Shown: positions 5,700-32,024 of the stretch, in pieces
How the letters are laid out: every line of letters begins with the position of its first letter
Position numbering within the stretch: position 1 is the stretch's first letter
Source of the DNA: Flavimobilis marinus
GTDB lineage: Bacteria > Actinomycetota > Actinomycetes > Actinomycetales > Cellulomonadaceae
Length of the DNA stretch: 64,000 nt
Direction: 5' to 3'
NCBI RefSeq assembly: GCF_900113055.1
Contig: NZ_FONZ01000005.1
Coordinates: 1-64,000, forward strand
Position numbers and translations under genes: made by a program
Notes under the pieces: model-generated
Seen by the model: the letters and a program-made list of their open reading frames with translations, nothing else
What the model was told of the DNA's origin: nothing
Databases searched by the model: none

Positions 5700-5925
5700 T
5701 CCCCGCTCTGTCCTCGGACCCGGAGGTCGACCTGAGAGTTTTCCCCGGGCGCCTAGGCCGGGTTGCCCCTTCGGTGAGGTCCTCCGCCCGGCGATGCCCG
5801 ACGTCGTCCCTGCTGTTCAGAGTTGCCTCGCCGCGGCGGTATGTGGGCCTGAGAGTTTCCCGGGGAGGGTTTGCTCCGTCGGCGCCCCGTCCGATCTACC
5901 AGCGGGGCTCTCCCGCCGCGGTTCG
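5700..5925 (-). promoter_or_regulatory. Tandem glycine riboswitch upstream of gcvP
   Basis: The minus strand carries two glycine aptamers in series. Aptamer 1 contains GCGGGAGAG (near 5918), a CCGACGGAGCAAA core (5882-5870) and GGGAAACTCTCAGGC (near 5860-5845). Aptamer 2 starts with ACTCTG near 5823, has the consensus core CCGAAGGGGCAA (5774-5763), AAAACTCTCAGG (near 5742-5731) and closes with GGACAGAGCGGGG (near 5714). In known cases this RNA turns on gcv genes when glycine is high. The downstream gene being gcvP makes the assignment secure; the expression platform (terminator or SD masking) was not resolved. Confidence 0.92.
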
Positions 5926-5967: not shown

Positions 5968-5977
5968 GACCCGTCCA

Positions 5978-9074: not shown

Positions 9075-9164
9075 GCGACCCATCCTGCCCCGAGAAAAAG
9101 GGGTGCCGCCCGTCGAGGCGAGGCGTAGCGTCGGAGTCACACACGAAGGGAGGTGGTCCACGAC

Positions 9165-9203
9165 ATGAAGTTCTCTTGGACTTGTGAGGTGGTCGCCGGC
9201 TGA
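9165..9203 (+). CDS. Putative 12-residue leader peptide
   Basis: An ATG at 9165 follows a very strong ribosome binding site (GAAGGGAGGTGG, 9145-9156) and reads MKFSWTCEVVAG then TGA. It contains adjacent Trp-Thr-Cys codons. It is immediately followed by a series of stable stem-loops ending in a U-run, as in attenuator leaders. No plus-strand gene follows, so what it would regulate is unknown. The call rests on SD quality and the RNA context; the peptide itself matches nothing I know. Confidence 0.4.
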   Translation: MKFSWTCEVVAG

Positions 9204-9310
9204 CTGCCGGTCGAAGACGGTCCGCCAATCCCAGGCGGCCACCGGGACCCGTGGGTGGTGCGACTCGTCCCCGCACTCGTCGGAACCCTCCGACAGCCCA
9301 CGGGTCTTTT
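9196..9310 (+). ncRNA. Structured leader/small RNA ending in an intrinsic terminator
   Basis: Downstream of and partly overlapping the tiny frame, the plus strand folds into CCGGC/GCCGG (9196-9200 with 9206-9210) and CCGCC/GGCGG (9222-9226 with 9234-9238). A 10-bp stem GACCCGTGGG/CCCACGGGTC (9246-9255 with 9297-9306) then encloses two more hairpins (GTGCG/CGCAC near 9258-9275, and GTCGGA/TCCGAC at 9279-9294), followed by TTTT (9307-9310). This is a three-way junction with a U-run. An alternative CCACC/GGTGG pairing (9239-9259) would break the terminator stem, as in an attenuator. Promoter not identified with certainty. Confidence 0.5.
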
Positions 9311-9345
9311 CCTGCCCCGGCGGCCCAGACCCGGACCGCGCGCCG

Positions 9346-10185
9346 TCAGACCGGAAGCAGCAACACGACGGTCAGTGCGACCGACGCCGCGATCTCGCCG
9401 AGGCCGACCTGCAGCGGCGTCGCCGGCCGCCCGGGCATCACGACGGTCCGCACACACAGCGCCACCAGCAGCGCGCCGACGAGCAAGACGCTCCCGTGCC
9501 CCGACCACGCGACGAGCCCCGTGCCCGCGAGCGCCAGCACCAGGTGGTACGCCACCGAGGCCCGCCGGTACCCGAGGCTCCCGCGCTCCCGGATCATCGT
9601 CTTCACGTACAGCACCGTGCCGAGGAAGTACCCGAGCACCAGCGCGAACACGACCCACGCCCGCCCGTCGACCGGCCCCGCGACGTCCACGGCGACCAGC
9701 AGCATGAGCGACGCCGCGAGCACGGTCACCCCGTCGTTCAGCAGCGACCGGTCCCGGCGCTGGTAGGAGCACCACAGGCTCACGACGACGAGCGGCACGA
9801 AAGCCGGGACCCACACCACGAGCTCGGGCGCGGTGAGCAGCACCGCCACGCCGCACGGCACGACGGCGATCGAGTACGCCCGCACGGGCGGCCACCACCG
9901 CTTCTTGAACCGCGCCCGCAGCCACTGCCCGACCGCGTAGAACGCGAAGTACCCGACGAACCACAGCAGCGCCAGGGGCACGTGTGCCCACACCGGCCCC
10001 CCGAGCGCGACGCCGACGACGAGGGGCACCACGAGCATCGCCCACGCCCCGTGCTGGTCAGGCACCCACCCGGGCCCGCGACGTCGTCGGCCACCACGAC
10101 CCCCGCCATCAGGACGGGCCGAAGGGCGCGCCGAAGGGCGGCGTCCACGCGGGACGCCGCCCTCCCGGGCTGGTGCTGAGGTCAA
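9346..10185 (-). CDS. YwiC-like family membrane protein (copy 1)
   Basis: A 279-residue polytopic membrane protein of the YwiC-like family, recognised by the N-terminal [14 protein letters not shown] block after a GWVPDQ lead, followed by about nine hydrophobic helices. Function is not established. The longest frame starts at TTG 10185 and adds about 40 residues of Arg/Gly/Pro-rich sequence; a GTG just before PDQHGAW would give a protein starting directly at the conserved block, so the start is uncertain. A paralogue of the same layout lies at 18691-19494. It follows the decayed dcu/aspA genes on the same strand. Confidence 0.75.
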
Positions 10186-10195
10186 CGGCGCGCCC

Positions 10196-10591
10196 TCAGA
10201 GCAGGACCGACCCGAACAGGAACCCGAAGGCCACCGCGAGCGCGATGTTGATGACGCCGGGCAGCAGGAACGGGTGGTTGAACACGGCCTTGCCGATCCG
10301 CGTCGTGCCCGTGTCGTCCATCTCGACCGCGGCGAGCAACGTCGGGTAGGTCGGCAGGATGAACAGCGCGGACACCGCCGGGAACGCGGCGACGGCCGCG
10401 GCCGGGGTGACGCCGATCAGCAGGGCCGTCGGCATGAGCGCCTTGGTCGTGGCGGCCTGCGAGTACAGCAGCGCCGACGCGAGCCCGAGCACCACGGCGA
10501 GCATCCACGGGAAGTCCGTCAGGACGTCCGAGGCGGCGTTCATGATGGCCTCCTCGTGCGCCTTGACGAAGGTCGTGCCGAGCCAGGCGAT
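10196..10591 (-). pseudogene. C-terminal remnant of an anaerobic C4-dicarboxylate transporter (Dcu family)
   Basis: From an Ile codon at 10591 the frame reads [17 protein letters not shown] and continues to a TGA at 10196, about 131 residues. It matches the last third of DcuA/DcuB-type fumarate-succinate exchangers, which are usually about 430-450 residues ([34 protein letters not shown] are family blocks). Some 300 N-terminal residues are missing. It begins exactly where the aspA remnant ends, in a different frame. An internal ATG at 10543 with GAGGAGG before it could still allow a 115-residue fragment to be made, but transport is very unlikely. Confidence 0.85.
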
Positions 10592-11144
10592 TCAGCACGT
10601 CGTCGAACTCGCGGGACTTGGCCTCGAACGCCAGGGCCAGCTGTTCGATCTCGCCCTTGAGCTGCTCGACGACGTTGTACACGGCGATGCGGAAGCCGGT
10701 GGGGTAGGCGTCGTTGGTCGACTGGCTCTTGTTCACGTGGTCGTTCGGGTTGACGACGTCGTAGCTGCCCTTGGGCAGGCCCAGGTGCTCGAGCGCGAGG
10801 TTGGCGATCACCTCGTTCGTGTTCATGTTCACCGAGGTCCCGGCGCCGCCCTGGAAGGCGTCGATGGGGAACTGGTCGAGGCACCGGCCGCGCACCAGGA
10901 CGTCGTCGCACGCGGCGACGATCGCGTCCGCGACATCGACGGGCAGGGTGCGCATCTCCTTGTTCGTCAGCGCGCAGGCCTTCTTGACCATCACCATCGC
11001 GCGGACGAAGTCCGGCGTGTCGCTGATGACGGTCGGGCTGATCCGGAAGTTCTCCATGGCGCGCACAGTGTGGACGCCGTAGTACGCGTCCGCGGGGACT
11101 TCCTTGGCCCCGAGCAGATCCTCTTCGATCCTTGTGCCGTTCAT
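10592..11144 (-). pseudogene. aspA: N-terminal remnant of aspartate ammonia-lyase
   Basis: The ATG at 11144 starts a protein that matches aspartase closely for 184 residues: [53 protein letters not shown]. Aspartases are about 470 residues. The match stops at EFDDVL (near 10593), just before the region that would hold the GRTQLQDA block. The frame then runs on as unrelated sequence, antisense to nothing, over the dcu remnant. The catalytic SS loop of the C-terminal part (GSSIMP) is absent, so no lyase activity is expected. It lies 61 bp after sdhB with an AAGGAG site, as a fourth operon gene. Confidence 0.88.
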
Positions 11145-11205: not shown

Positions 11206-11958
11206 CTACGTGCTCCTGCCGCCGCGCCAGACGGCGCGCAGCCGCTCCTTGTTCACCGCGGCGATCGCGGTCAGGGGGATGCCTGCGGGGCAGACCTCGA
11301 CGCAGGCGCCGAAGCTCGAGCATGGCCCGAAGTCCGTCTCCATCTCGGCAACCATGGCCCGGGCGCGGCGGGTGCGCTCGTGCTTGCCCGTGGGCAGCAG
11401 CGCGAGGTGGCTGAGCTTGGCGCCGACGAACAGGTGGCCCGCGCCGTTGGGGCAGGCTGCGACGCACGCGCCGCACCCGATGCAGGCGGCGAAGTCGAGC
11501 GCGAGCTCGGCGGCGGCGTGGTCGAGGGCCACAAGGTCGGCGGCCGGCGCGGTGCCGGCGTCGATCGCCACGTGGCCGCCCGCGGCGATCACGCGGTCGA
11601 GCGAGGAGCGGTCGACGACGAGGTCGCGGATCACGGGGAACACGGCGGACCGCAGCGGCGCGATGCGCACGCGCTGTCCGTCGGTGTAGCGCGCGAGCCG
11701 CTGGTGGCACGAGGGGGTGTTGGCCTGCGCGCCGTGCGGGCGCTCGTCCACGGTGACGCCGCACGAGCCGCAGACGCCCTCGCGGCAGTCGGACTCGAAC
11801 GCCACCGGGTCGCCGCCGGACTCCACGAGCTGCTCGTTGAGCCGGTCGAGCAGCTCGACGACCGACATCTCCGGCGTCGCGTCGGCCACCTCGTAGGTCT
11901 CGTACCGACCTTCCGCGGCAGGGTCCTCCTGCCGCCACACCTCCAGGACGAGTCTCAC
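11206..11958 (-). CDS. sdhB: Succinate dehydrogenase/fumarate reductase iron-sulfur subunit
   Basis: A 250-residue electron-transfer subunit. All cluster ligands are present: Cys58, 63, 66 and 84 for [2Fe-2S]; Cys159, 162, 165 and 223 for [4Fe-4S]; Cys169, 213 and 219 for [3Fe-4S]. The start is a GTG at 11958 that overlaps the sdhA stop (GTGA) and has AAGGAG five bases before it, so longer readings into sdhA are rejected. It passes electrons between the flavoprotein SdhA and the membrane cytochrome SdhC. Direction (succinate oxidation or fumarate reduction) cannot be decided from this subunit. Confidence 0.95.
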   Translation of the reverse strand: MRLVLEVWRQEDPAAEGRYETYEVADATPEMSVVELLDRLNEQLVESGGDPVAFESDCREGVCGSCGVTVDERPHGAQANTPSCHQRLARYTDGQRVRIAPLRSAVFPVIRDLVVDRSSLDRVIAAGGHVAIDAGTAPAADLVALDHAAAELALDFAACIGCGACVAACPNGAGHLFVGAKLSHLALLPTGKHERTRRARAMVAEMETDFGPCSSFGACVEVCPAGIPLTAIAAVNKERLRAVWRGGRST

Positions 11959-13952
11959 CGGTAGCTCCTTGTCTGCAGGGGGACGGCGTCGAACGTGAGC
12001 GGCTCGTGGTGGCGCACGAACCGTCCGTCGCCAGGGACCTCCCACGCGGAGACGAACGACCACCGCTCGTCGTCGCGCGCGGCCTCGCCGTCGATCTGGT
12101 GCTCGCCCCGGAAGTGCGCCCCGCAGGACTCCTCGCGGTCGAGCGCGTCGAGGCACATGAGCTCGGCGAGCTCGAGGTAGTCCGCGACGCGTCCGGCGCG
12201 CTCGAGCTCCTGGTTCAGGCGCCTCCCGGTGCCAGGCACCCGGAGGTCCGTCCAGAAGGCGGCGCGCAGCGCGCGGATCTTGTCGATCGCGGTGGTCAGG
12301 GAGGCAGCGGTGCGGTGCACGCCGCAGCCGGCGTACAGGATGTCCCCGAGCTCGCGGTGGAACGACGTCGCGCTGCGCGTGCCGCCGACGCCGAGCAGAC
12401 GGTCGACCCGGGCCCGGGTGCGCGCGAGCGCCTCCTGCACCGCGGGGGCGTCCGCCTCGAGCGGCGTCGATCCCAGGCGCCCGGCGAGGTAGCTCGGCAC
12501 CGAGTACGGCAGCGTGAACCAGCCGTCGACGGCCGCCGACAGCAGCGAGTTCGCGCCGAGCCGGTTGGCCCCGTGGTAGCCCCACCCGGCTTCGCCGCCC
12601 ACGAAGAGGCCGGGCAGCGAGGTCATCTGGTCGTAGTCGCTCCACAGGCCGCCCATGGTGAAGTGCGCGCCCGGGGCGATCCGCATGGGCGTGGTGTACG
12701 GGTCCTCGCCGGTCGCGTGGGTGTACATCTCGAACAGGTTCCCGTAGCGCTCGGCGATCGCCTGCTTGCCCACGCGCGCGATCGCGTCCCGGAAGTCCAG
12801 GTAGACGCTGTTGCGCAGCGGGCCGACGCCGTGGCCGGCCTCGATCTGCTCGGTCGCGTTGCGCGAGGCGACGTCGCGCGGGGTGAGGTTTCCGAACGTC
12901 GGGTAGCGCCGCTCGAGGTAGTAGTCGCGCTCGTCCTCGGGGATCTGGTCGGGTGTGCGCTCGTCGCCGGCCTTCGCCGGCACCCAGATGCGTCCGTCGT
13001 TGCGCAGCGACTCGCTCATCAGGATCGTCTTGGACTGCCACCGCGAGCTGACCGGCAGCGCCGTGGGGTGGAACTGGATGAACGACGGCGAGGCCATCAG
13101 CGCCCCGCGCTGCACCGCGCGCCACGCGGCCGACGCGTTGGAGTTCTTCGCCAGGGTGGAGAAGTAGAAGACGTTGCCGTAGCCGCCCGTCGCGAGGACG
13201 ACCGCGTGCGCGGTGTGCGCCGTGATCTGGCCGGTCAGCAGGTTCCGCATGACGACGCCCTGCACCTGGCCGTCGGTGACGATGAGGTCGAGCATCTCGT
13301 GCCGTGTGCGCAGGGTGACGGTGCCGGCATCGACCTGGCGCAGCAGCGCCTGCGCGCCGGCGACCTGGAGCTGCTGGCCGGTCTGCCCGCGCGTGTAGTA
13401 GGTGCGCGAGACCTGGACGCCGCCGAACGAGCGGGTGGCGAGCATCCCGCCGTACTCGCGGGCGAAGGGCGCGCCGATCGCGTTCATGTGGTCGATGACG
13501 CGGACGGACTCCTCGCCGAGGCGGTAGGCGTCTGCCTCCCGGCCGCGGAAGTCCCCGCCCTTGACGGTGTCGACGACGAAGCGGTCGATCGAGTCGTTGT
13601 CGACCTTGCGCCCGCGCGCCGCGTTGATGCCGCCCTGGGCGGCGACGGAGTGCGCCCGGCGCGGGGCGTCGTGGTAGGTGAAGGCCTCGACCTGGTACCC
13701 GAGCTCCCCGAGCGCGGCGGCCGCACCGGACCCGGCGAGGCCGGTCCCGACGACGATCACCTTGAGCTTGCGGCGGTTCGCCGGGTTCACGAGCCGGTAC
13801 GCGAGCCGACGCCGTTCCCACGCGCTCTGCGGCGGACCGTCGGGGACGTTCGGGTTCAGCGCTCGGCCGCCCTCGACGCCGGGCACCGTGGGCACCGGGA
13901 CGGTCGTCCCGGCTGTGGTCTCGGGCGTCACCGTCGTCGGGTGCGCGCTCAT
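11955..13952 (-). CDS. sdhA: Succinate dehydrogenase/fumarate reductase flavoprotein subunit
   Basis: A 665-residue flavoprotein. FAD-binding GTGLAGSG sits at 69-76, and the covalent flavin His is His101 in RAHSVAAQGGINA. The C-terminal GLFVGGEAGWGYHGANRLGANSL matches the active-site Arg/His region. The roughly 60-residue N-terminal extension and the single-cytochrome operon are typical of B-type enzymes like those of Bacillus and many Actinobacteria. ATG 13952 overlaps the sdhC stop (ATGA). It sits between sdhC and sdhB in a coupled sdhC-A-B operon followed by remnants of aspA and dcu, which hints at an original role in fumarate respiration. Confidence 0.96.
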   Translation of the reverse strand: MSAHPTTVTPETTAGTTVPVPTVPGVEGGRALNPNVPDGPPQSAWERRRLAYRLVNPANRRKLKVIVVGTGLAGSGAAAALGELGYQVEAFTYHDAPRRAHSVAAQGGINAARGRKVDNDSIDRFVVDTVKGGDFRGREADAYRLGEESVRVIDHMNAIGAPFAREYGGMLATRSFGGVQVSRTYYTRGQTGQQLQVAGAQALLRQVDAGTVTLRTRHEMLDLIVTDGQVQGVVMRNLLTGQITAHTAHAVVLATGGYGNVFYFSTLAKNSNASAAWRAVQRGALMASPSFIQFHPTALPVSSRWQSKTILMSESLRNDGRIWVPAKAGDERTPDQIPEDERDYYLERRYPTFGNLTPRDVASRNATEQIEAGHGVGPLRNSVYLDFRDAIARVGKQAIAERYGNLFEMYTHATGEDPYTTPMRIAPGAHFTMGGLWSDYDQMTSLPGLFVGGEAGWGYHGANRLGANSLLSAAVDGWFTLPYSVPSYLAGRLGSTPLEADAPAVQEALARTRARVDRLLGVGGTRSATSFHRELGDILYAGCGVHRTAASLTTAIDKIRALRAAFWTDLRVPGTGRRLNQELERAGRVADYLELAELMCLDALDREESCGAHFRGEHQIDGEAARDDERWSFVSAWEVPGDGRFVRHHEPLTFDAVPLQTRSYR

Positions 13953-14728
13953 GAGACGAGACCGGTCAGGACGGCGATCGGTATGCAGATGTTGCCCACG
14001 AGGATCGCGAGCGGGACGATCCCCGCGATCGCGTAGCCGACGGCGCGGGCGCGGCGCCCGGTGACCCCGAGGTCCTGGACCACGGTCCACAGCCCGTGCG
14101 CGAGGTGCAGAAACAGGGTCAGCAGCGCGACGCAGTACGCGAGCGCCGCCCACGGGCGCTGGAAGCTCGCGACGACGTTCTGGTAGGCGAACGCCTCCTC
14201 GGTCGTGACGTGCTGGTAGCCGTCAGCCGCGACCCCGGGGGTGCCGAGCGTGAGGTCCATCAGGTGGAAGATGACGAAGCCGAGGATCACGACGCCGCTG
14301 ACGGGCATGGTCCGGGCGGCGAACGACCGCGCACCCAGGCGCTGCCGCGGGAACGCCCCCCGTGAGCGCCGCGCACGCGCGGACAGCATGACGGCCGCCC
14401 CGACGTGGCCGACGAGCGCCGCCAGCAGCACGATCCGCATGATCCACAGCACGCCTTCCCACGGCAGCAGCGGCTCGAACAGCGTACGGAGCCAGTAGGC
14501 GTAGTGGTTCAGACCCTCGGGGCTGATGAAGATCTTCAGGTTGCCGACCATGTGCACGAGCAGGAACAGCGCGAAGATCGACCCGCTCACCGCCATGACG
14601 ACCTTGAGCGCCCAGGACGGGATGCGCGGCGCTCGCCGCAGCGGCTGGTCCCGCAGGTGCCCGTGCGTCAGTGCGTCGAGGTCAGCGCCCGGAAGGGGGC
14701 TGCCTGGTCCTGCGGTCGTGGGTGACAT
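13949..14728 (-). CDS. sdhC: Succinate dehydrogenase/fumarate reductase cytochrome b subunit
   Basis: A 259-residue membrane anchor with five predicted helices, starting near residue 40 (WALKVVMAVSGSIFALFLLVHMVG). Histidines inside helices (LLVHMVGN, VGHVGAA, FHLMDL, LFLHLAHGL) are good haem b ligands, and the layout is that of the diheme single-subunit B-type anchor. ATG 14728 is preceded by AAGGAGAC. First gene of the operon. A B-type diheme enzyme with menaquinone can work either as fumarate reductase or as an energy-driven succinate dehydrogenase. Confidence 0.95.
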   Translation of the reverse strand: MSPTTAGPGSPLPGADLDALTHGHLRDQPLRRAPRIPSWALKVVMAVSGSIFALFLLVHMVGNLKIFISPEGLNHYAYWLRTLFEPLLPWEGVLWIMRIVLLAALVGHVGAAVMLSARARRSRGAFPRQRLGARSFAARTMPVSGVVILGFVIFHLMDLTLGTPGVAADGYQHVTTEEAFAYQNVVASFQRPWAALAYCVALLTLFLHLAHGLWTVVQDLGVTGRRARAVGYAIAGIVPLAILVGNICIPIAVLTGLVS

Positions 14729-22193: not shown

Positions 22194-22330
22194 CGCTCCA
22201 TCGTGGTGCGCCGCTCGGACCGCGGCAACCGCGTCTCGCGGCGTCCCGCGAGCCCGGCCAGCACGCCAGCGGCGGCGAGCGCGAGCACGAGGAGTCCCGT
22301 GATCGCGATCCACGAGCCGCGGGACGGCAC
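22190..22330 (-). CDS. Possible small membrane protein coupled to the SMP-30 gene
   Basis: A 46-codon frame from GTG 22330 encodes one clear membrane helix (WIAITGLLVLALAAAGVLAGLAG) followed by a basic tail RRETRLPRSERR. Its TGA overlaps the ATG of the lactonase gene. Overlap and the single-helix design argue that it is real, but no ribosome binding site is evident and I know no family. It could also be the tail of a longer non-coding frame that runs back towards tRNA-Leu. Confidence 0.35.
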   Translation of the reverse strand: MPSRGSWIAITGLLVLALAAAGVLAGLAGRRETRLPRSERRTTMER

Positions 22331-22433
22331 CGGGCAGCCCGCCGGTGCGCGGTCAACACTGCGCCGGCCAGATCTCGGGAGCACCTCTGCACGCCAGCGC
22401 CGTGCACAAGTCCTCCGAACTTCGCCCGGACGC

Positions 22434-31988: not shown

Positions 31989-32024
31989 GCACCTCCCGCC
32001 AGCGCTGAACCGGCGGTGTGCTCA
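31986..32024. terminator. Bidirectional terminator between pknB and the amidotransferase gene
   Basis: Outer stem TGAGCAC/GTGCTCA (31986-31992 with 32018-32024) and inner stem CCGCC/GGCGG (31996-32000 with 32012-32016). The outer arms contain the stop codons of both convergent genes. Confidence 0.6.

Follow-up and report, generated by a model that had tools for sequence, protein, structure and literature searches.

A recent single deletion probably inactivated aspA and dcu beside an intact sdhCAB in Flavimobilis marinus

We analyzed a 64,000-nt stretch of the Flavimobilis marinus genome (the window), the minus strand of which carries a cluster in the order sdhC-sdhA-sdhB-aspA-dcu, with the last two genes present as remnants. 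It is very probable that a recent, single 1,834-bp deletion, likely made via non-homologous end joining (NHEJ), killed aspA and dcu while SdhCAB was kept. The locus is an ordinary and well-resolved case of two-gene pseudogenization, and the rest of the cluster is whole.

Results

Gene content of the cluster

The window belongs to a genome of 2.90 Mb in 11 contigs (99.84% complete). We compared it with the closest of the 39 genomes searched (its own counted in), which is of the same genus and is referred to here as G003. An earlier note on this DNA, made from the sequence alone, had proposed the order sdhC-sdhA-sdhB-aspA-dcu on one strand, with sdhCAB intact. Family matches and the comparison with G003 agreed with this order. 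The sdhC gene (13952-14728 without the stop codon, minus strand) encodes a b558-family membrane subunit of succinate dehydrogenase/fumarate reductase (NCBIfam TIGR02046, E 7.2e-45) with 96.5% amino acid identity to its G003 counterpart. It is followed on the same strand by sdhA for the flavoprotein subunit (11958-13952 without the stop codon; NF005749, 1051 bits; TIGR01811, 915 bits) and sdhB for the iron-sulfur subunit (11209-11958 without the stop codon; NF005746, 348.9 bits). All three are intact, with dN/dS values of 0.078, 0.115 and 0.113 for sdhC, sdhA and sdhB against G003. The gene order is like that of the Bacillus subtilis-type sdhCAB, a succinate:quinone oxidoreductase with a b558-type membrane subunit, and the families matched by the window subunits (TIGR02046, TIGR01811/NF005749 and NF005746) fit either a fumarate reductase or a succinate dehydrogenase. 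The same genome encodes a second, separate succinate dehydrogenase (SDH) flavoprotein (TIGR01816, 909.7 bits, above the cut-off), with counterparts of similar PF02910 score in all five congeners, so that a special role of the window sdhCAB is conceivable. A fumarate-linked role would fit this but is not demonstrated by it.

The aspA remnant (10591-11144, minus strand) consists of the 5' 554 nt of the gene, namely codons 1-184 and two nucleotides of codon 185, as delimited by TIGR00839 and the G003 alignment. Positions 10593-11144 matched TIGR00839 (aspA) at profile positions 1-179 of 468 (E 2.9e-79), with a score of 267.2 bits, below the curated cut-off of 681.2, as opposed to 770.8 for the intact G003 copy. 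The fragment represents the N-terminal 38% of AspA, with 184 of 487 residues kept and 303 (62%) lost relative to G003. These values are in line with the earlier note, which had seen the match stop at residue 184 (near 10593) and about 290 residues missing; the last kept aspA base is 10591. The loop GSSIMPAKVN, which has a role in AspA catalysis, is invariant at residues 319-328 in six aligned sequences and is also found in 1jsw. The remnant ends at residue 184 and hence lacks this loop. An open frame of 320 aa (10182-11144, minus strand; ATG at 11144, stop at 10182-10184) runs across both remnants and comprises 184 AspA residues, one hybrid codon and 135 residues translated from the end of dcu in another frame. 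The Pfam Lyase_1 match in this frame covers residues 12-184 only (profile 1-153 of 312).

The dcu remnant (10196-10590, minus strand; TIGR00770 and PF03605) consists of the 3' 395 nt of the gene, namely two nucleotides of codon 310, codons 311-440 and the stop codon. Positions 10196-10591 matched TIGR00770 (Dcu) at positions 300-430 of 430 (E 2.7e-51), and the PF03605 match covers positions 306-368 of 368. The TIGR00770 score was 175 bits, below the cut-off of 331.35, compared to 585.4 bits for the G003 copy. Relative to the 440 codons in G003, 130 whole codons and the hybrid codon are kept and 309 are lost, close to the loss of about 300 residues estimated before. Only the C-terminal 30% of the membrane carrier remains. 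The remnant also contains a frame of 115 aa (10196-10543, minus strand) with GAGGAGG upstream of its ATG at 10543. The earlier note had suggested that this stub may still be made. The motif, the ATG and the frame do exist, but their special meaning was not upheld, as GAGGAGG is present as coding sequence in four of the five intact congener dcu genes, together with the ATG in three. We therefore rejected the stub as a designed start, the GAGGAGG and ATG being ordinary dcu coding sequence in intact relatives.

Deletion junction

At the same place, G003 has an intact aspA (487 aa) and an intact dcu (440 aa), and the stop of the former overlaps the start of the latter. When 16 kb of the window was aligned, a G003 stretch of 1,834 bp (L032:6383-8216) proved to be absent from it. 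The difference at aspA-dcu is this one gap, and the flanks on its two sides are 94.9% and 94.8% identical. The junction lies at 10590-10591 (minus strand), between positions 2 and 3 of a Lys codon (AAG) on the aspA side and between positions 1 and 2 of a Val codon (GTC) on the dcu side. The retained sides meet without any inserted base, and 0 bp is shared backwards or forwards. This agrees with the earlier description of a Dcu match starting at 10591 in another frame with no spacer. Both codons are the same in all five congeners, which means that no microhomology can have been masked by synonymous drift. Since 1,834 is not a multiple of three, the aspA and dcu frames do not join.

The deletion and its ends are directly visible in the assembly, and five congeners lack it. 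The intact G003 pair and the single gap support the view that one deletion truncated aspA and dcu together, in accordance with the one event of roughly 1.8 kb suggested by the earlier note. We also searched the 11 contigs for the missing 1,834 bp. There was no close copy, and the four weak matches comprised one of 66% identity over 460 nt, in a paralogue at 648 kb of contig C7, and three of 53 nt or less. We thus rejected the idea that the same genome has the deleted DNA in a second copy.

Other differences from G003

For comparison with the window we used 59 frames that a simple rule based on codon composition predicted in G003. Fourteen of them were without a match in the window, four of these lying beyond its end. 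Among the 45 matched frames, 38 had a single, stop-free match over more than 93% of their length. Another four were matched over 80-93%; for two of them, a further piece lies in a different frame. The remaining three fell below 40%; they are aspA, dcu and, next to another gap, a chemotaxis-receptor-like frame. Differences in gene content from G003 are thus not confined to aspA-dcu.

The chemotaxis-receptor-like frame (806 aa, assigned by eye) is cut to 183 residues at window 22210-22425, where approximately 3.8 kb of G003 is absent, through loss in the window or gain in G003, and where an alkaline-phosphatase-like frame of G003 (by eye) is also missing. At 5969-5977, about 11.0 kb of G003 (C1:162864-173882, with eight predicted frames unmatched) is absent upstream of a glycine riboswitch (5827-5925, minus strand, 61.4 bits), which itself lies upstream of a glycine-dehydrogenase-like frame (by eye). 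At 31989-32018, the window has no match to a 257-aa frame of G003 that resembles a sortase by eye. The window also contains an Rfam Ms_IGR-5 actinobacterial sRNA at 9139-9314 (plus strand, 72.5 bits).

Distribution of the cluster

Our sample of the genus comprised six genomes, that of the window and five congeners. PF03605 was full-length in all five congeners and present only as a fragment in the window's genome. The five genes sdhC-sdhA-sdhB-aspA-dcu were intact and in order in every congener, and an intact aspA-dcu pair, which the earlier note had suggested seeking in close relatives, was accordingly found in all five congeners, G003 among them. The same fused gene occurred in none of the five.

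In more distant relatives, seven AspA-like loci (L038-L044) had neither dcu nor sdh within 15-16 kb. We further surveyed named AspA loci, the best 80 of 494 found, a set rich in gammaproteobacteria. Of these 80, 57 also contained a Dcu match, and sdhA was present in two, Flavimobilis itself and Bowdeniella nasicola. The latter was the only one outside the genus with sdhA-sdhB beside aspA among the 79 other named loci from these best 80 of 494, several of which are cut by contig ends. Its genes (L123) are ordered sdhA-sdhB-aspA on a contig of 4.3 kb, the end of which lies 228 bases past the aspA match.

Age of the loss

Against G003, synonymous and nonsynonymous changes numbered 10 and 1 in the aspA remnant (dN/dS 0.029) and 14.75 and 3.25 in the dcu remnant (dN/dS 0.076), and neither ratio is worse than those of sdhC, sdhA and sdhB. 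A YwiC-like gene downstream of dcu had a dN/dS of 0.46, above those of all the other genes compared, and was left out of the argument on age. The low values in both remnants make the loss look recent. In the remnants, the window's branch accounts for two amino acid changes, or for three if an ambiguous site is counted. The neutral upper bound on the time since loss is 0.16 to 0.20 of that branch, presuming that all changes post-date the loss and that each branch carries half of the synonymous distance, and it rises to 0.23 if all counted changes are assigned to the window's branch. The loss would therefore fall, roughly, within the last sixth to quarter of the branch at most.

Discussion

We propose that DNA ends within the sdhCAB-aspA-dcu cluster were rejoined, which would have removed the 1,834 bp from within aspA codon 185 to within dcu codon 310. 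Ku/LigD NHEJ is the likeliest route, because the join is blunt and the genome has Ku and LigD-type genes. Ku was matched at E 2.3e-50, and the NHEJ-ligase match (278.7 bits; cut-off 227.75) lies approximately 1.7 kb away from it. Within the genus, Ku was found in six of six genomes and the ligase match likewise in six, above the cut-off in three; the ligase model matched 6 of 14 control genomes, one of them above the cut-off. As Ku and the ligase match occur throughout the genus, their presence is permissive only. The combination of 0 bp microhomology with Ku and LigD is consistent with NHEJ, not proof of it. The window case resembles NHEJ-joined small-deletion pseudogenes in its blunt junction, in the loss of two neighboring genes at once and in the presence of Ku and a LigD-type ligase. 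Compared with them, it has nothing special and would be a single event caught early.

Recombination between short repeats, or a mobile element, could instead have made the deletion, and we consider this very unlikely. A 6-bp repeat (CGTGCT) and an 8-bp repeat (GACGACGT) do start within 14 bp of both ends; however, they are out of register with the deletion ends, and equal or more repeats were found in 35% (7-mers) and 24.5% (8-mers) of 2,000 random pairs. Such repeats, for which the earlier note had advised looking at the break, are thus present near the ends but not above background. A mobile element is disfavored by the junction, which contains no extra sequence. It is scarcely credible that the cell retains the 320-aa fusion or the 115-aa stub as a working protein. 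In favor of this reading, the frames of both remnants are still open, with few changes, and the stub has an ATG preceded by GAGGAGG. However, the fusion is out of frame past hybrid codon 185 and is absent from the five congeners, and the putative start of the stub is coding sequence in intact dcu genes. The recency of the loss explains the conserved frames of both remnants.

It is also unlikely that the gap is an artefact, with the chromosome carrying intact aspA and dcu and the flanks joined by the assembler or a chimeric read. The low dN/dS of both remnants would be expected from an intact gene pair as well. Yet the flanks share no sequence at the junction, so that, as far as assemblers can be reasoned about, an overlap-based join would have nothing to use. 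Moreover, the missing DNA is without a close copy anywhere on the 11 contigs of this nearly complete assembly, and the reading frames of the window are otherwise largely sound against G003. We infer that the assembly reflects the chromosome. The deletion may have arisen in culture or in a subpopulation.

We take both the AspA and the Dcu remnants to be dead, since the former lacks the GSSIMPAKVN loop and the latter is less than one third of a carrier. The cell would be expected to have lost Dcu-type dicarboxylate exchange as well as its dedicated step from aspartate to fumarate, with SdhCAB retained and able to act on fumarate or succinate from inside the cell. No match to four further C4-dicarboxylate transporter families (PF00375, PF00939, PF03606 and PF06808) was found in the window's genome, and within these families a replacement transporter was rejected. 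None of the four had a match in G003 either.

The window's genome has one AspA-like paralogue, on contig C7 (L140:471-1913, minus strand), on which the NCBIfam models disagree. It scored above the aspartase-subfamily cut-off (NF008909, 542.9 versus 510) and below that for class II fumarase (540.7 versus 664.75). Its closest relatives in the PDB are class II fumarases, with no aspartase among the 37 sequences at E 1e-110 or better, and class I fumarase was found in none of the six genomes of the genus. From these relatives and the absence of a class I enzyme, the paralogue is probably a fumarase; a second aspartase is the less likely reading, although NF008909 accepts it. With the aspartase cut-off passed and the fumarase cut-off missed, a complete loss of aspartase activity is likely but not demonstrated.

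PMC10634366 outlines for Escherichia coli and Actinobacillus succinogenes how aspartate is taken up through DcuA and turned by aspartase into fumarate, which is then respired. The intact congeners resemble the aspA-dcuA operon of these species (Asuc_0141-0142 in A. succinogenes) in having AspA followed by a Dcu-family antiporter, whereas in Flavimobilis the pair comes after sdhCAB, and both genes are truncated in the window. The titles and abstract openings among the matches listed in the literature on Flavimobilis, DcuA/aspartase and NHEJ/LigD contain nothing on the window locus.

The aspA-dcu deletion leaves general understanding unchanged. It offers a clean, roughly datable case in which two linked functions were removed by one deletion, with the intact version in a close relative. 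For annotators, sdhCAB with two fragments is no basis for inferring aspartate-driven fumarate respiration here. More tentatively, and with the balance of our judgement somewhat against it, the genus might keep sdhCAB-aspA-dcu as an aspartate-to-succinate respiratory module beside a normal SDH, the supply half of which the window species would have just dismantled by blunt end joining with SdhCAB intact. If true, this would provide a natural test of the role of SdhCAB independent of outside aspartate.
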